A stretch of DNA of 64,000 nt. Origin: Streptomyces oceani (GTDB taxonomy: Bacteria; Actinomycetota; Actinomycetes; Streptomycetales; Streptomycetaceae). The stretch lies in assembly GCF_001751245.1 (NCBI RefSeq), contig NZ_LJGU01000113.1:272411-336410 (forward strand), given 5' to 3'. This document shows, in pieces, positions 24,364 through 64,000 of this stretch. The notes below the pieces were generated by a model. It saw only the letters and a list, made by a program, of their open reading frames with translations. It did no database searches and had not been told where the DNA came from. Every line of letters starts with the position of its first letter. Position 1 is the stretch's first letter. A program made the translations under genes and the position numbers.

Positions 24364-26580
24364 GTGAGCGGGCGCCCGGCAAAGGGCCGTCACCGGCTGT
24401 CACGGAATCCGCGGGGACACTGGCTCCTGCTGGCCGTCGTCGTCCCCGTGATGTTCGCGGCGCTGCTCTTCGAGGGCTGGACCAAGCACGAGGTGGACGC
24501 CGCGACGAGTCCGCCGGACTGCACGGCTCCGGCCCCTCGGGAGGTACGGGACGGCGGCCCGGTGCTGCGTGACGACGGCGGAGGACTGACCACCGCCTCG
24601 ATGCCGAAACGCACCGTCGCGCTCACCTACGACGGCGGCCCCGACCCCGAGTGGACCCCACGCCTGCTCGACCTGTTGGACCGGCACGACGCGCGAGCCA
24701 CCTTCTTCCTGTCCGGCGCCCAGGCGGCCCGGCACCCGGAGTTGGTCCAGCGGATACGCGCGGAGGGGCACGAGATCGGGTCCCACACCTACACCGGTGG
24801 CGACCTGGCCTCGGCCTCCGAAATGCGTTCCCGGCTCGAACTGTCCCTGACGCGAACCGCGCTGGCCGGCACCGTGGGCGTACACACCAAATTGTTGCGA
24901 ATGCCACAGACGACGACGCCCGACACGTTGTGCGGCGCCAAATGGAAAGCCGCACAACGTGTCCTCGATCAGGGCTATCTACTTGTCGCCGCCGACCCGC
25001 AGTCCCGGAAACCGGCGAAAGGCGCGATCCGGCAATACAGCCAGACGAGTCTCGCGTACAAGGAGACCAAACGGCTGTTGAACAACGAGAACATCAGCGA
25101 GTTCACCACTGTGACGGCGGGCATCGGCACGCCGTCCACCAACACCCCCACCTCGCACGTGGAACGCTGGAAGGGGACGGCCCTGCTGTGGGCCCAGAAG
25201 CTCGGTCACGCCTTCGCCGGAAGCATGATCTGGGTGCTGGCGCTCGCGGGCGCCCTGGGGCTGTCCCGACTGTTGTTCCTCGTGCTGTTCGCTCGCGCGC
25301 ACGTACGGCGGCTGGAGCGCTTCCGTCCCGGTGCGCCCTGGCTGCGGGAGGTCAACCAGCCGATCACCGTCCTGATACCGGCCTTCAACGAGGAGGCCGG
25401 TATCGAGTCCACCATCCGCTCCCTGCTCGGCTCCCAGCACGTACGCCTACAGATCATCGTGATCGACGACGGCTCCACGGACCGGACCAGCCAACTCGCG
25501 GCTGCCGTACGGGACCCCCGGGTGACGGTCGTACGGCAGCCGAACTCCGGCAAGGCGGCGGCCCTCAACACCGGGTTGGCGCACGCCCAGCACGACCTGG
25601 TGGTCATGGTGGACGCGGACACCGTCTTCGATCCGGAGGCGATGTACCGACTCATCCAGCCGCTCGCGCACCCCGCCGTAGGCGCGGTGTCTGGCAACAC
25701 GAAAGTCGGCAACCGCCGTCGGCTGCTGGGCAGGTGGCAGCACCTGGAGTACGTCTTCGGGTTCAACCTGGACCGGCGGATGTTCGAGGTCCTGGAGTGC
25801 ATGCCCACGGTCCCGGGGGCCATCGGCGCCTTCCGCAGGGACGCGCTCATGGGCATCGGCGGCGTCAGCGAGGACACCCTCGCGGAGGACACCGACCTCA
25901 CCATGGCGCTGTGGCGGGCGGGCTGGCGGGTGGTGTACGAGGAGTCCGCGATCGCCTGGACGGAGGTCCCTGGTTCGCTGCGGCAACTGTGGCGGCAACG
26001 CTACCGCTGGTGCTTCGGCACGCTCCAGGCGATGTGGAAACACCGGCGGGCCATGCTCGAGGTGGGGCCGGCCGGTCGCTTCGGCCGTCGCGGCCTCACG
26101 TATCTCGCGGTCTTCCAGGTGGCGCTGCCCCTGCTGGCCCCGATCATCGACCTGTTCGCCATCTACGGCACCCTCTTCCAGGACCCGATGCGCTCCCTGA
26201 CCGTCTGGTTGGCCTTCCTGGCCGCCCAACTGGTCTGCGCCGGATACGCGTTGCGTCTGGACGGGGAACGGCTCCGTTCCCTGTGGGTCATGCCCGCCCA
26301 GCTGATCGTCTATCGGCAGCTGATGTATCTGGTGGTGATCCAGTCGATCGTCACCGCGCTGCTCGGCACTCGGTTGCGCTGGCACCGGATGCACAGGTCC
26401 GGCACGGCGGCCCAGGAGATCGGTCAGCCCGTGCCTCTGGCGGAGCTCAGCGAGACGGCACCACCCCCACCACCACCCCCACAGCACACCAATGTCCCCC
26501 CACCACTGATCGGCGGTCGGAGTGAACGGCAACAACTGGCACCCTGGCCCGACGGGGCCAGGAGCCATACCGGGGCATGA
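24364..26580 (+). CDS. Membrane GT2 glycosyltransferase fused to a degenerate NodB deacetylase domain
   Basis: 738-residue membrane protein. One N-terminal membrane span (about 19-37) leads to a NodB-like domain (80-260) outside the cell, a second span (285-310), then a processive GT2 domain (LIPAFNEE, IDDGSTDRT, VDADT, AEDTD, QRYRW) and three or four C-terminal spans. The catalytic domain resembles poly-N-acetylglucosamine or hyaluronan-type synthases. In the NodB part the metal and catalytic motifs are broken: YDGGP (90-93) for FDDGP, HTYTG (141-145) for HTxxH, RMPQ for RPPY, and no LLHDG motif. The start GTG 24364 is weakly supported. It overlaps the next gene by 59 bp. Confidence 0.88.
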   Translation: MSGRPAKGRHRLSRNPRGHWLLLAVVVPVMFAALLFEGWTKHEVDAATSPPDCTAPAPREVRDGGPVLRDDGGGLTTASMPKRTVALTYDGGPDPEWTPRLLDLLDRHDARATFFLSGAQAARHPELVQRIRAEGHEIGSHTYTGGDLASASEMRSRLELSLTRTALAGTVGVHTKLLRMPQTTTPDTLCGAKWKAAQRVLDQGYLLVAADPQSRKPAKGAIRQYSQTSLAYKETKRLLNNENISEFTTVTAGIGTPSTNTPTSHVERWKGTALLWAQKLGHAFAGSMIWVLALAGALGLSRLLFLVLFARAHVRRLERFRPGAPWLREVNQPITVLIPAFNEEAGIESTIRSLLGSQHVRLQIIVIDDGSTDRTSQLAAAVRDPRVTVVRQPNSGKAAALNTGLAHAQHDLVVMVDADTVFDPEAMYRLIQPLAHPAVGAVSGNTKVGNRRRLLGRWQHLEYVFGFNLDRRMFEVLECMPTVPGAIGAFRRDALMGIGGVSEDTLAEDTDLTMALWRAGWRVVYEESAIAWTEVPGSLRQLWRQRYRWCFGTLQAMWKHRRAMLEVGPAGRFGRRGLTYLAVFQVALPLLAPIIDLFAIYGTLFQDPMRSLTVWLAFLAAQLVCAGYALRLDGERLRSLWVMPAQLIVYRQLMYLVVIQSIVTALLGTRLRWHRMHRSGTAAQEIGQPVPLAELSETAPPPPPPPQHTNVPPPLIGGRSERQQLAPWPDGARSHTGA

Positions 26581-28432
26581 CGGGCAGTACGGGTACCCGC
26601 CGGGCCCGGATTCCGGTTGGGCGCCGTACGGGCCCGGTTCGGAGCCGTACGGACCCGGCGGGGCGGCGTACCACCCCGAGCCCACGCCGTACGGACCCGG
26701 CGGGACGCCGTACCACCCCGAGCCCACGCCGTACGGACCCGGCGGGACGCCGTACCACCCCGAGCCCACGCCGTACGGACCCGGCGGGACGCCGTACCAC
26801 CCCGAGCCCACGCCGTACGGACCCGGCGGGACGCCGTACCACCCCGAGCCCACGCCGTACGGACCCGGCGGGACGCCGTACCACCCCGAGCCCACGCCGT
26901 ACGGACCCGGCGGGACGCCGTACCACCCCGAGCCCACGCCGTACGGACCCGGCGGGACGCCGTACCACCCCGAGCCCACGCCGTACGGACCCGGCGGGAC
27001 GCCGTACCACCCCGAGCCCACGCCGTACGGACCCGGCGGGACGCCGTACCACCCCGAGCCCACGCCGTACGGACCCGGCGGGACGCCGTACCACCCCGAG
27101 CCCACGCCGTACGGACCCGGCGGGACGCCGTACCACCCCGAGCCCACGCCGTACGGACCCGGCGGGACGCCGTACCACCCCGAGCCCACGCCGTACGGAC
27201 CCGGCGGGACGCCGTACCACCCCGAGCCCACGCCGTACGGACCCGCTGGGACGCCGTACCACCCCGAGCCCACGCCGTACGGACCCGGCGGGACGCCGTA
27301 CCACCCCGAGCCCACTCCGTACGGACCCCCTCAGCCAGACCCCGTCGTCCCCACGGAGGCACGGCCCGTACCGAGGCAGGAACGCCTGCCGTCACGCGAC
27401 GGCGACGGCGGTTACCGGCCGGCCGGCCGGCCGTTGCGGCCTCGGCCCAGCCGTCGCCGGCGGATCGCGCGCTGGCTGGCGTTCCTGACCTGTCTGCTGC
27501 TGCTCACTCCGGCCGGCACGTACGTCTGGGCGGACACCGAACTCGACCGGTCCGTCGATCTCGGTGGCCTCCCGGACCGCCCGCCACGCGGCGAGGGGCG
27601 CAACTTCCTCATCGTGGGCTCGGACAGCCGCACCGGGCTCTCCGAGGAGGAACAGGAGAACCTGCACACCGGCGGGGGCGAGGGCGGCCGGACGGACTCG
27701 ATGATCCTGCTGCACACCGGAGCCAACGGTACGACGATGACGAGCCTGCCCCGGGACTCATGGGTGACCCTGCCCGAGTTCACCCGTCCGGAGACCGGCA
27801 GGCATCATCCGGCCGCGAAGAACAAGCTCAACGTGTCGTACTCCTGGGGTGGCCCGGAGATGCTGGTGCGCACCGTCGAACTCAACACCGGCCTCCGGAT
27901 CGACAACTACGCGGAGATAGGCTTCGGCGGCTTCGTGGACGTCGTCAACTCCGTCGGCGGCGTGGAGATGTGCCTGAAACGGGACGTGCGGGACAGGAAG
28001 TCGGGCCTCGATCTCCCGAAGGGCTGCAGCCAACTGGACGGGGCCGAGGCTCTCGCGTTCGTCCGGCAGCGGCATCAGGAGGCCAACGGCGACCTCGGGC
28101 GGACGAGGAACCAGCAGAAGTTCCTCGCGGCCCTCGCCGAGAGGGCGGCCACTCCCGACGTCGCGCTCAACCCGCTCAAGGCGTATCCGACCGTGAACGC
28201 GGCGCTGGACACGCTTGTCGTGGACGAGGACATGAGTCTGGTGGACCTGACGGCGCTCTTCCGAGCCGTGCAGAGCGTCGCCTCGGGCGACGGGAAGCAG
28301 ATCAACGTCCCCGTCTCGGACCCGTACCACCACACGCCCAAGGGCAGTACGGTGAAATGGGACCGGCGCAAGGCCCAGAAGTTGTTCACCCAGCTGCGCA
28401 ACGACGAAAAGGTGACCTTCTCCGGAAACTGA
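26522..28432 (+). CDS. LytR-CpsA-Psr family protein with a 16-copy repeat tail
   Basis: 636-residue LCP protein, a family that transfers lipid-linked glycopolymers onto peptidoglycan. The cytoplasmic N-terminus (50-273) is a tandem array of YHPEPTPYGPGGTP. A basic stretch and one membrane span (about 316-338) follow, then the extracellular LCP domain with IVGSDSR, GRTDSMILLH, SLPRDSWV, KLNVSYSWGGP and FVRQRHQEANGDLGRTRNQQ, keeping the arginine and aspartate residues expected to bind pyrophosphate and metal. Start: GTG 26522, overlapping the GT2 gene by 59 bp, which implies coupled translation. The catalytic part is normal; the repeat tail is what is unusual. Confidence 0.93.
   Translation: MNGNNWHPGPTGPGAIPGHDGQYGYPPGPDSGWAPYGPGSEPYGPGGAAYHPEPTPYGPGGTPYHPEPTPYGPGGTPYHPEPTPYGPGGTPYHPEPTPYGPGGTPYHPEPTPYGPGGTPYHPEPTPYGPGGTPYHPEPTPYGPGGTPYHPEPTPYGPGGTPYHPEPTPYGPGGTPYHPEPTPYGPGGTPYHPEPTPYGPGGTPYHPEPTPYGPGGTPYHPEPTPYGPGGTPYHPEPTPYGPAGTPYHPEPTPYGPGGTPYHPEPTPYGPPQPDPVVPTEARPVPRQERLPSRDGDGGYRPAGRPLRPRPSRRRRIARWLAFLTCLLLLTPAGTYVWADTELDRSVDLGGLPDRPPRGEGRNFLIVGSDSRTGLSEEEQENLHTGGGEGGRTDSMILLHTGANGTTMTSLPRDSWVTLPEFTRPETGRHHPAAKNKLNVSYSWGGPEMLVRTVELNTGLRIDNYAEIGFGGFVDVVNSVGGVEMCLKRDVRDRKSGLDLPKGCSQLDGAEALAFVRQRHQEANGDLGRTRNQQKFLAALAERAATPDVALNPLKAYPTVNAALDTLVVDEDMSLVDLTALFRAVQSVASGDGKQINVPVSDPYHHTPKGSTVKWDRRKAQKLFTQLRNDEKVTFSGN
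26669..27340 (+). repeat. 42-bp tandem repeat, 16 units, in the LCP coding sequence
   Basis: Sixteen head-to-tail 42-bp units encode YHPEPTPYGPGGTP. By eye, units 1-13 and 15 are identical. Unit 14 has GCT for GGC (Ala for Gly) and unit 16 diverges at its end (ACT, CCTCAGCCAGAC). A degenerate half unit precedes the array (26642-26668). Because 42 is a multiple of three, copy changes keep the frame. Confidence 0.97.
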
Positions 28433-59881: not shown

Positions 59882-62800
59882 TCAACGCGACTCCATCCAC
59901 TGGCCCATGACAATCAGCAGGTGGTCCGTGTCCACCGGCTTCGTGACGTAGTCGGAGGCTCCGGACTCGATGCTCTTCTCCCGGTCACCCTGCATCGCCT
60001 TCGCGGTCAGCGCGATGATGGGCAACCCCTCGAACTGCGGCATCCTACGAATCGCGGCGGTCGTGGCATAGCCGTCCATTTCCGGCATCATGATGTCCAT
60101 CAACACCACCGCGGCATCGTCGTTCTGCTCCAGAACCTCGATGCCCTCCCGACCGTTCTCGGCATACAGCACCTGCAGACCACTCTGTTCCAGGACGCTG
60201 GTCAACGCGAAGACGTTGCGGATGTCGTCGTCGACGATCAGCACCTTCTCCCCGTTGAAACGCGCCGAAGGGCCTGGGCGCACCAAGTCCTGGCCATTCG
60301 TACGCCACGACTCCTCAGCCTTCGTCTCGCGTCCCGCGACATCCGTGGCCTCTCCGCCCCCGCGCTGTCCCTCAGCAGGCTCCGCACGATCCATCCCCGG
60401 CCTCGCCTGCCTCCTACGACGCTGGGCGAGGGAAGCCGCCGCCCGCTTGGCATCGCTCTCCGGTGCCGTGTCCGTCTCCCCCTGGGCGATGTCCCGCTGC
60501 TGGGCGGCGCCAGCCCCATCACCAGCGTCAGCGGCCCCAGCGGTCTCGTCGGCCATAGCAGCCCCAGCGGAGTCAGTGAACGAGCCCCCCGTCGTGTCCT
60601 CCGAGGCGTCGTCAACCGCGTGATGCTCCTCCCCCTGGGTCGTACGGGCCTCCGGCGGCGCCGCCGCGAGCGCCAGCGAACCGGTGCTGACCTGTGCGTA
60701 ACCCTGCGGAGGAAGCTCCACCGGCTGCAACGGTAGGTAGAGGGTGAACGTCGAGCCCCGGCCGGCCTCGCTGGCGGCGTCGATCTCACCGCCCAGGAGC
60801 CGGGCGATCTCCCGGCTGATGGACAACCCGAGCCCCGTGCCACCGTACTTCCGGCTGGTCGTACCGTCAGCCTGCTTGAACGCCTCGAAGATCACCAGCA
60901 TCTTGCTCGCCGCGATCCCGATACCGGTGTCCGTCACCGAGAACGCCACCAGGTCGGCGTCGGCGTCGCGGATGGAGCCGTGCTCGAGCATCAACTGCCT
61001 GATCCCGTCCGGCACCTCGTCAGCCGCCGCACGGATCACGAGTTCGACGGCTCCGGAATCGGTGAACTTGACGGCGTTCGAGAGCAAGTTACGCAGCACC
61101 TGCAGCAGCCGCTGTTCGTCCGTGTGCAGAGTGGCCGGCAGCTCTGGAGAGACCCGGACCGAGAAGTCCAGACCCTTCTCCGCGGTCAGGGGCCGGAAAG
61201 TCGCCTCGACGTAGTCCACGAGCTGGACGAGCGCGATACGGGTCGGGCTGACGTCCATCTTTCCCGCCTCGACCTTCGACAGGTCGAGGATGTCGTTGAT
61301 GAGCTGGAGCAGGTCGGAACCGGCTCCGTGGATGGTCTCGGAGAACTCCACCTGCTTCGGAGAGAGGTTGCCCTCCGCGTTGTCCGCGAGGAGCTTGGCC
61401 AGAATCAGCAAGGAGTTCAGCGGGGTGCGCAACTCGTGCGACATGTTCGCGAGGAACTCCGACTTGTAACGCATCGACACCGAGAGCTGTTCCGCACGCT
61501 CCTCGAGCACCTGTCGGGCTTCCTCGATCTCCCGGTTCTTGATCTCGATGTCGCTGTTGGTCTGGGCCAGTTGCTCGGCCTTCTCCTCCAGCTGCGCGTT
61601 CGACTCCTGCAGCGCCTTCTGCCGACTCTCCAGCTCCGCGGAGCGCTCCTGGAGCTGTTCGGTCAGCTCCTGGGACTGCGCCAAAAGCACCTCCGTCTTG
61701 GTGTTGACGCTGATGGTGTTGACACTGGTCGCGATGACCTCCGCGATCCGGTTCAGGAAGTCCTTCTGGATCTGCGTGAACGGCTGGAAGGAGGCCAGCT
61801 CGACGACACCGAGCACCACCCCTTCGAAGATCACCGGCAGCACGATGACATGAGCCGGTGGCGCCTCGCCGAGCCCGGAGGAGATCTTGAGATAACCGGG
61901 CGGAGCGTTCTCCACCAGGATGGTGCGCTTCTCGTCGGCAGCCGTCCCCACGAGGGCCTCGCCAGGGCCGAACGTGGTGGGCATGCTCCCGGTCTCGTAG
62001 CCGTAACTGCCCACCATCCGCAGCTCGTACGACACGTCCTCCTCCGCGCCGGAGGAGCCCGTGCCGATCTCCCCGGCACCGATGCCGTCCGTACCGCCGC
62101 CCACGGGAACCGCCACGAAGAAGGCACCGTGCTGCGCCGCCACCACCGGAGTCAACTCGCTCATGATCAGGCGGGCCACGTCCTTGAGATCGCGGTGCCC
62201 CTGCATGCGCGCGGAGATCCGGGCCAGATTGCCCTTCAGCCAGTCCTGCTCCTTGTTGGCCAGGGTGGTCTCGCGCAGGTTGGTGATCATCGTGTTGATG
62301 TAGCCCTGCAGCTTCAGGATCTCGCCGGACGCGTCCACATCGATGCGCACGTTGTGGTCCCCACGGGTCACCGCGGTGGCGACCTGGGAGATGTTGCGCA
62401 CCTGACGGGTGAGGTTACCCGCCATCTCGTTCACCGAGTCGGTCAGGTCCTGCCACGTCCCGGCCACGTCGCGTACCCGCGCCTGGCCGCCCAACTGGCC
62501 CTCCGTACCCACCTCCCGGGCCACCCGCGTCACCTGCTCAGCGAACGAGGACAACTGGTCGACCATCGTGTTGATCGTGGTCTTCAGTTCGAGGATCTCG
62601 CCGTTCGCCTCGATGTCGATCTTCTTCGTCAGGTCACCCTTGGCGATGGCGGTCGTCACCATGGCGATGTTGCGCACCTGACCGGTCAGGTTCGACGCCA
62701 TGGAGTTCACCGAGTCCGTCAGGTCCTTCCAGGTCCCAGCCACCCCCGAGACCCTGGCCTGGCCGCCCAGCTGGCCCTCCGTACCCACCTCGCGGGCGAC

Positions 62801-64000
62801 CCGCGTCACCTCCTCGGCGAACGCGGAGAGGGTTGTCACCATCGTGTTCACGGTGTCGGCCAGCTGCGCGACCTCGCCACTGGCCTCGACGGTGACCTTC
62901 TTCGTCAGATCGCCGTTGGCGACCGCGCCGGCGACCTGCGAGATGTTGCGCACCTGGCCGGTGAGGTTGTTGGCCATCAGATTGACGTTGTCCGTGAGGT
63001 CCTTCCAGATCCCGGACACGTCCCGTACGCGCGCCTGGCCGCCCAGCTGGCCCTCCGTACCCACCTCGCGGGCAACCCGCGTCACCTGCTCCGCGAACAG
63101 GGACAGCTGGTCCACCATGGTGTTGACGGTGGTCACCAGGGCCAGGATCTCGCCCTTGGCGTCGACGGTGATCTTCTTGGACAGGTCTCCCTGGGCGACG
63201 GCCGTGGTGACCTCCGCGATGTTCCGCACCTGAGACGTCAGGTTGTTCGCCATGAAGTTCACGGACTGGGTGAGGTCCTTCCAGGTACCGGAAACCCCCT
63301 TCACCTCGGCCTGGCCACCGAGGATGCCCTCCGTACCGACCTCCCGGGCCACCCGGGTCACCTGCTCGGCGAACGACGAGAGCTGACCCACCATCGTGTT
63401 GATCGTCGTCTTCAGCTCAAGGATCTCACCACGGGCGTCCACATCGATCTTCTGCGACAGATCACCCCGCGCCACCGCGGTGGCGACCTGGGAGATGTTG
63501 CGCACCTGGGCGGTGAGGTTGCCCGCCATGCCGTTCACCGAGTCGGTCAGATCCCGCCAGACCCCCGCCACACCGGGCACCTGCGCCTGACCGCCGAGCC
63601 GGCCCTCCGTACCGACCTCCCGGGCCACCCGGGTCACCTGGTCGGCGAAGGAGGAGAGCTGGTCCACCATCGTGTTGATCGTCGTCTTCAGCTCAAGGAT
63701 CTCACCACGGGCGTCGACCTCGATCTTCTGCGACAGGTCACCTCGCGCGACCGCCGTCGTCACCTGGGCGATCTGTCGTACCTGCGAGGTGAGGTTGCTG
63801 CCCATGGAGTTGACGGAGTCGGTGAGGTCCTTCCACGTCCCCGAGACCCCCTCCACCCGGGCTTGACCACCGAGCCTTCCCTCGGTGCCGACATCGCGCG
63901 CCATCCGGGTGACCTGTTCGGCGAACGCGGAGAGTTGGTCGACCATCGTGTTGACGGTGTTCTTCAACTGGAACATCTCGCCCGAGACATCCACGGTGAC
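59882..64000 (-). CDS. osaA: Poly-HAMP hybrid histidine kinase of the OsaA type, 5' part missing
   Basis: At least 1372 residues; the frame continues past the right edge. The visible order is six HAMP-like units of ~92 residues ([47 protein letters not shown]), a GAF domain, a coiled coil ([19 protein letters not shown]), the H-box [17 protein letters not shown], ATPase boxes [22 protein letters not shown] and [19 protein letters not shown], and a C-terminal receiver ([27 protein letters not shown]). No membrane span is visible. It is a cytoplasmic hybrid kinase, with osaB next downstream. Confidence 0.92.
62280..64000 (-). repeat. 276-bp tandem HAMP-coding repeats inside osaA
   Basis: Six ~276-bp units, each encoding one 92-residue HAMP module, with local DNA identity high enough that identical short stretches recur exactly 276 bp apart (for example from about 63396 and 63672). 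The array continues past the window edge. Confidence 0.85.

Follow-up and report, generated by a model that had tools for sequence, protein, structure and literature searches.

An in-frame minisatellite, likely of recent origin, was found to add 220 residues to the predicted cytoplasmic tail of an LCP (LytR-CpsA-Psr) family protein of Streptomyces oceani, the gene of which directly follows a glycosyltransferase (GT) gene. With a confidence just short of even, we read the enlarged tail as a disordered spacer of adjustable length. The function inferred for it runs as follows: the spacer would separate an N-terminal head from a basic patch close to the membrane; the head may dock onto a cytoplasmic partner, perhaps the neighbouring synthase or the growth-zone machinery; and the LCP domain outside the cell would attach the polymer of the neighbouring enzyme to peptidoglycan. 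Gain or loss of units would then alter the reach of the ligase from its docking point, with the reading frame always intact. The features of the locus within the window, namely the whole stretch of 64,000 nucleotides analyzed here, are as follows.

24364..26580, forward strand: polysaccharide deacetylase and family 2 glycosyltransferase fusion, PgaC/IcaA-like, 738 aa, overlapping the start of the LCP gene by 59 bp
26522..28432, forward strand: LCP (LytR-CpsA-Psr) family gene, 636 aa, predicted GTG start, PF03816 and TIGR00350
26522..26668, forward strand: N-terminal head, residues 1-49 (MNGNNW...), ending in degenerate 7-residue YGPG.. half-units
26669..27328, forward strand: 42-bp tandem array, 15 full units and 30 bp of a sixteenth, 14 of them identical, encoding YHPEPTPYGPGGTP
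27215..27256, forward strand: unit 14, the sole full unit that deviates (two adjacent bases, Gly to Ala)
27341..27451, forward strand: membrane-proximal basic segment, residues 274-310, Arg-rich
27452..27541, forward strand: predicted single transmembrane helix, residues 311-340 in the model
27689..28147, forward strand: LCP domain, Pfam match at residues 390-542

Structure of the 42-bp array

TRF called the array at 26644-27328 (period 42, 16.3 copies, 98% matches, no indels, score 1335), reporting a weak 21-bp period as well, and its head-to-tail in-frame units, being longer than the 10 bp required, make it a coding minisatellite. Unit-by-unit comparison from 26669 revealed that units 1-13 and 15 are identical over all 42 bases, which bore out the description in the earlier note of a near-perfect array in an LCP tail, homogenised at the DNA level, with 14 units identical including their third codon positions. 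Unit 14 reads GCT in place of GGC, and unit 16 follows the repeat for 30 bases, apart from a synonymous ACG to ACT exchange, before departing from it. The sixteen units extending to 27340 in the same note are thus to be corrected to 15 full units plus 30 bp, with the end at 27328 and a length of 220 codons, whereas the array as such is real. Synonymous drift between units, which had been named as contrary evidence, was absent except for the single base in the last, partial unit. The perfect 42-bp periodicity extends over 579 bp (26667-27245), with pure units at the 5′ end and the variant units at the 3′ end of the array. The whole array is in frame within the ORF 26522-28432, GC at third positions amounting to 91% over 26669-27340 in the LCP frame, and the unit length is, as had been pointed out, divisible by three, so that no frameshift arises from a change in unit number.

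The 14-residue unit consists of two halves, YHPEPTP and YGPGGTP, and the protein just upstream of the array reads YGPGSEP YGPGGAA, that is, two 7-residue half-units resembling those halves. Since these degenerate half-units directly precede it, the array looks to have grown from a 7-residue seed; this growth was likely recent and would have proceeded by slippage or unequal exchange. A special DNA structure was also considered and rejected, as on neither strand did two units show a folding advantage over shuffles (z 0.05 and 0.98). On the reverse strand, an antisense open frame of 622 aa (25447-27315) crosses the array with the repeat GSGWYGVPPGPYGV and is probably a by-product of high GC content.

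The LCP protein and its predicted tail

The encoded protein matched PF03816 with 147.1 bits (cut-off 24.6) and TIGR00350 with 133.8 bits (cut-off 62.3), and the GTG codon is the sole in-frame ATG/GTG/TTG upstream of the array within the open frame. In an AlphaFold model built with 28 sequences, residues 1-310 were without secondary structure (block pLDDT 29-56), followed by a helix at residues 311-340 and then by the LCP fold; the mean pLDDT of 59.9 and pTM of 0.48 are low because the tail pulls them down. A fold search with this model returned 33 PDB matches (E up to 0.001), headed by LCP enzymes, and the solved LCP enzymes TagV, TagT, and LcpA were matched in both sequence and fold. The predicted architecture, one N-terminal membrane helix and then the LCP fold, is therefore that of an LCP enzyme. 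Moreover, R390, D392, R411, D412, R515, R517, and R527 were invariant among 28 chosen proteins in blocks aligned to TagV, and we take them to be the LCP active-site Arg/Asp residues. A LytR_C domain was not found, PF03816 being the only domain matched in the whole protein (E up to 0.001).

Pro, Gly, Tyr, and Thr are abundant in the 314-residue tail, which is predicted from the model to be disordered over residues 1-310. Its location in the cytoplasm is predicted on the basis of the helix flank, which is Arg-rich and contains 13 Lys/Arg against 4 Asp/Glu over residues 274-318, together with the LCP topology given in the consulted part of the literature (PMC2632651). Frame, PF03816 match, and model are thus all in agreement with an in-frame coding minisatellite in a predicted cytoplasmic tail of an LCP protein, as had been proposed. 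Scans for promoters and terminators yielded nothing above shuffles.

The upstream glycosyltransferase gene

The fusion gene upstream carries the domains PF01522 and PF00535, and its best NCBIfam match was TIGR03937 (PgaC/IcaA) with 195.9 bits, which lies below the equivalog cut-off of 422.3. The same genome yielded no further fusion of this type, its other four matches being partial with 26-36% identity. Among the loci taken, a glycosyltransferase motif was located just upstream of the LCP gene for 59 distinct proteins, window included (hereafter GT-linked LCPs), and the pairing of the two genes suggests that the LCP protein may attach the polymer of its neighbour to peptidoglycan. The deacetylase/PgaC-like GT fusion followed by the LCP gene is a widespread and conserved pair (window 24364-28432; loci L010-L105), and several genomes, e.g., G022, G026, G348, and G390, hold two such pairs. 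To judge by eye, the oppositely oriented gene preceding the fusion resembles miaB.

The plan of a NodB-like deacetylase joined to a PgaC-like glycosyltransferase is shared by the window's upstream gene and MatB (SCO2962), the enzyme which in S. coelicolor and S. lividans makes poly-beta-1,6-N-acetylglucosamine together with MatA, according to the consulted parts of the mat literature (PMC4391728, PMC5972031). The two loci differ in their arrangement: MatA lies upstream and SCO2961 downstream of MatB, with no LCP gene named in those parts of the papers (PMC4391728, PMC5972031), whereas in the window the LCP gene follows and overlaps the fusion.

Conserved ends and recurrent repeats in the tails of relatives

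The comparison was based on 105 loci, of which 17 were without a parsed LCP ORF (4 of them left out on purpose); 15 of the 88 parsed loci were without a glycosyltransferase motif in the flank, and the 73 left represent the 59 distinct GT-linked proteins. In addition, a database set of 120 proteins was used, which was reduced to 115 by the removal of 5 without a parsed core, the neighbouring gene being known for the locus set alone. The homologues do not form a random set, since they come from a similarity-ranked sample of the genus. Seven named loci matched the LCP core, six from Streptomyces at 63-68% identity and the seventh (31%) from a Clostridiaceae bin; among the 120 database proteins listed, the organism names shown were Streptomyces. 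Start codons were chosen by rule, and some tail lengths are therefore overestimated (e.g., L021, 263 residues).

Both ends of the tail were found to be conserved. A Trp within residues 2-9 was present in 32 of the 59 tails (8.1 in shuffles) and 81 of the 115 database proteins (14.9 in shuffles), a GQxW-like motif in 13 (shuffles 1.4) and 54 (shuffles 3.1), respectively, and a basic cluster near the tail end in 50 and 97. The consensus of 28 chosen homologues starts MxDWLxG...TGQVW. The head of the window protein retains the Trp (MNGNNW) but reads GQYGY and so has no clear counterpart of GQ[VI]W; this makes its docking end uncertain, which weighs against the spacer reading in this protein. In the GT-linked LCP tails (L010-L105, P0001-P0120), the short head, approximately M-x-D-W ... 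T-G-Q-[VI]-[WY], is a candidate docking motif. LCP tails without a GT in the flank carry YNTGQVYG in 9 of 11 cases and a variant in the other 2, as judged by eye.

Between these ends, tandem repeats were frequent. With a minimum TRF score of 40, arrays were detected in 35 of the 59 tails vs. 4 of 59 LCP-domain and 1 of 59 glycosyltransferase segments; the corresponding counts were 22, 1, and 0 at a score of 60, and 15, 0, and 0 at scores of at least 80, the control segments being nearly matched in length (17,808 and 17,601 vs. 18,039 tail bases) and the window being among the 59. The best periods were divisible by 3 in 33 of the 35 tail arrays. At the protein level, the tandem signal of 25 of the 59 tails exceeded composition shuffles at p<0.05 (22 at p<=0.01), and that of the LCP-domain control segments in 0 of 59. 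The units found in relatives, such as GPYPYGSPDGAGL, YGGDA, QPPQMYP, HPGEYASQV, and TGQVV, among more, were all different from that of the window. Hence, the search of LCP orthologues for the same tail that had been proposed gave the window unit in none examined and different in-frame repeats in many. The tail of GT-linked LCPs is thus one that recurrently gains in-frame tandem repeats, with units differing between lineages, and because its ends are anchored and its middle is elastic, the spacer reading is the one we prefer.

When the 20 rows with the lowest shuffle p were labelled "repeat" on a tree built from the membrane-plus-LCP part, the label required 14 gains or losses, 11 of which were forced by well-supported branches. 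Shuffled labels required 16.8 changes on average and were as low as observed in 30 of 500 shuffles, so the trait is weakly clustered on the tree. The window row is placed with uncertainty on a long branch (0.42). Its tail was the longest of the 59 at 314 aa (median 90), the second, L021 at 263, being probably inflated.

Tail length in near-identical proteins

Pairs of proteins with cores at least 97% identical differed in tail length in 20 of 32 cases and in core length in 1 of 32; these pairs are not independent, since 10 of the 20 length-different ones fall among five S. platensis proteins, and the count excludes three loci whose start codons are doubtful. The N-terminal parts (tail plus membrane helix) of the S. 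platensis proteins P0053, P0060, P0084, P0111, and P0119 ranged from 165 to 195 residues. In the 11 pairs that were aligned, repeat stretches had been gained or lost in several; for instance, L086 and P0027 have cores 99.7% identical, and a 16-residue repeat piece is absent from one of them. These observations support a rapid change of tail length in the LCP family, the window array itself being seen in one genome. That the length probably changes quickly also follows from the many different repeat stretches which relatives carry in the same tail, and length variation is therefore plausible for the family as a whole.

The main rival to the spacer is a neutral expansion, in which the array would be a mutational by-product of a GC-rich, repeat-prone, disordered segment, where changes in length are tolerated for want of any fold, and its length would be without effect on the ligase; we judge this to be a considerable possibility, although below even. 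The identity of the units down to their third positions fits a recent expansion without selection on the sequence, the units differ between lineages, and their composition is generic, being Pro/Gly-rich. A disordered tail may carry repeats neutrally, and that the controls are almost free of arrays is no argument against neutrality, because a folded segment could hardly tolerate them. Furthermore, 11 of the 15 parsed loci lacking a GT motif in the flank were tested, and 3 of their tails passed p<0.05 with short GPG-type repeats; repeat-proneness is thus not unique to GT-linked LCPs, and a clear-cut specificity to them was rejected. On these two grounds, the intolerance of structured controls and the 3 of 11 other tails, the neutral reading remains strong, and both count against the spacer. 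Opposed to neutrality are the conserved ends of the tail and the requirement of the related LCP protein CglA for its own tail, be it for function or stability, in the consulted part of PMC11481543.

Rarity of the array and reliability of its length

In a pattern search tolerating up to 3 mismatches, the 30-base core taken from the unit occurred 16 times in its own genome and in 0 of 391 other genomes of the genus, and a reversed-pattern control gave zero matches; the array is therefore not a product of chance. TRF identified 205 distinct arrays in 1,264,000 bases of the same genome, sampled as 60 stretches of 20 kb plus the window, with approximately 7.6 kb counted twice. In this sample, the sole higher score belonged to a coding 276-bp repeat, 76% identical, in a kinase gene of the same window, and among units of at least 9 bp one array alone had more copies (9 bp x 26.8 at 83%). 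Shorter perfect arrays do occur in the genome, e.g., 7 bp x 11.0 at 100% over 77 bp. The kinase gene in question, a large hybrid sensor kinase gene (59882-64000, reverse strand), is cut by the window end, and its approximately six diverged 276-bp (92-aa) repeats (TRF 62382-63966, 5.7 copies, 76%) resemble by eye repeated HAMP-type segments, followed by kinase and receiver parts. The 9-bp array of about 27 copies (83%) lies at G000:C147:36886-37138 (L169:16886-17138) and has the consensus GGACGACCG.

The window unit was likewise absent from relatives at the protein level: a search with residues 1-285 gave no match at E 0.001 among the 7,995 candidates scored, to which its scope is confined and among which low-complexity correction may hide matches. 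The nearest near-full-length match to the core was 76% identical at the DNA level, one 413-bp partial match being 77% identical, and DNA, protein, and pattern searches for a second isolate in which the units could be counted found none. This confinement of the unit to one genome is a further point against the spacer reading.

The existence of the array is confirmed, and doubt is confined to its length. It appears rather unlikely that the unit count arose in assembly, with software closing an array that is in truth shorter or longer, and such a miscount would be compatible with any other reading given here. The source genome is a 6.31-Mb draft of 166 contigs, 97% complete, and a search of it for 16S rRNA gave zero matches, whereas 9 of 14 control genomes yielded one; this suggests that repeats are lost, and may be mis-sized, in the assembly. 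Nevertheless, the array is impure, with unit 14 and the end of unit 16 differing, and its flanks are continuous with the gene within a 342-kb contig. The assembly artefact raised as a possible objection in the earlier note therefore does not apply to the array itself, while the copy number of 16 is provisional in view of the 166-contig draft and its missing 16S match.

Tail composition and translation start

A further alternative, which we regard as improbable, is a multivalent sticker tail, in which Tyr and His within a Pro/Gly spacer would self-associate or bind a partner repeatedly and thereby cluster the ligase at the membrane, in line with the condensate idea of the earlier note. The array contains 32 Tyr, 16 His, 16 Glu, and zero Lys/Arg, and is then followed by the Arg-rich segment; likewise, the stronger arrays of 17 relatives are richer in Tyr (8.4 vs. 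3.3%) and poorer in Arg (7.2 vs. 13.2%) than the rest of the same tails. However, of the 18 stronger arrays, counting that of the window, no more than 11 contain Tyr, and aromatic residues are missing from units like TGQVV and RSRS, so the condensate idea gains little from the composition.

It is very improbable that the array lies outside the mature ligase, either because translation starts downstream at TTG 27434, which is in frame and could in principle give a product without the array, or because the array is expressed in the other frame from ATG 26577, which overlaps the upstream stop and opens a 303-aa ORF, since the array shows the GC pattern of the LCP frame by codon position (0.72/0.71/0.91) and homologues encode long tails with a conserved head in that frame. 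ATG 26577 forms ATGA with the upstream stop, and its 303-aa ORF is Arg/Thr/Pro-rich and crosses the array. With starts chosen by rule, 8 of the 59 homologues begin at such an ATGA overlap, raising the question of an old frame change.

Comparison with known systems

The papers compared here were consulted in part, and the likenesses and differences are limited accordingly. The window protein resembles CglA of S. venezuelae in having an LCP domain, a membrane helix, and a long intracellular portion predicted to be disordered (PMC11481543). The two differ in that CglA has a LytR_C domain, which the window protein lacks, so that membership in the CglA-type LCP-LytR_C proteins was rejected, and in the length of the intracellular part, approximately 100 aa in CglA vs. 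approximately 310 here; moreover, no repeat array is described for CglA in the consulted part of PMC11481543. The Streptomyces LCP proteins of cluster A3 (length 559-617 aa) share with it a long low-complexity segment near the N-terminus (PMC2632651). Those segments are Gly/Gln-rich, whereas the tail of the window protein holds 63 Gly but 3 Gln in 314 residues, and assignment to cluster A3 was thus rejected (PMC2632651).

The protein gave matches to TagT/TagU/TagV and LcpA in the sequence and fold of the extracytoplasmic domain. It is set apart by its tail of about 310 residues, since among the LCP sequences examined for structure, eight putative cytoplasmic tails have 6-19 residues and one has 121-123 (PMC2632651). 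The tandem repeats of Borgs are similar in being recent, in arising independently, and in creating disordered protein regions; they differ in belonging to archaeal extrachromosomal elements and many genes, as opposed to one chromosomal tail in one bacterial enzyme family here (PMC9879509). An analogy to spidroin-like GPGG repeats was considered, and nothing was built on it. Among open-licence papers, the literature search found none joining Streptomyces, LytR-CpsA-Psr, and tandem repeat.

Implications for the LCP family

Wall biogenesis in Streptomyces is described as little known (PMC11481543, consulted part). The length of an LCP tail is of interest because the tail tested in that study, the approximately 100-aa intracellular portion of CglA, predicted to be disordered, is needed to restore development in S. 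venezuelae, CglA without it failing to do so for reasons of function or stability (PMC11481543, consulted part). This precedent adds weight to the spacer reading. If the tail is indeed a spacer of drifting length, the five S. platensis proteins would constitute a natural graded length series in which its role can be tested. The pairing of synthase and LCP genes further raises the idea of a PNAG-like adhesive polymer covalently fixed to peptidoglycan. More broadly, and in our estimate doubtful at present, Streptomyces LCP ligases paired with PNAG-type synthases may carry an evolutionary length dial, that is, a disordered cytoplasmic leash held at its ends by a docking head and a basic membrane patch, with a middle repeatedly rebuilt by in-frame minisatellites, which would set reach and mycelial adhesion. 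Were this so, lineages, and even strains of one species, would set the reach of the enzyme from the synthase or the growth-zone scaffold.
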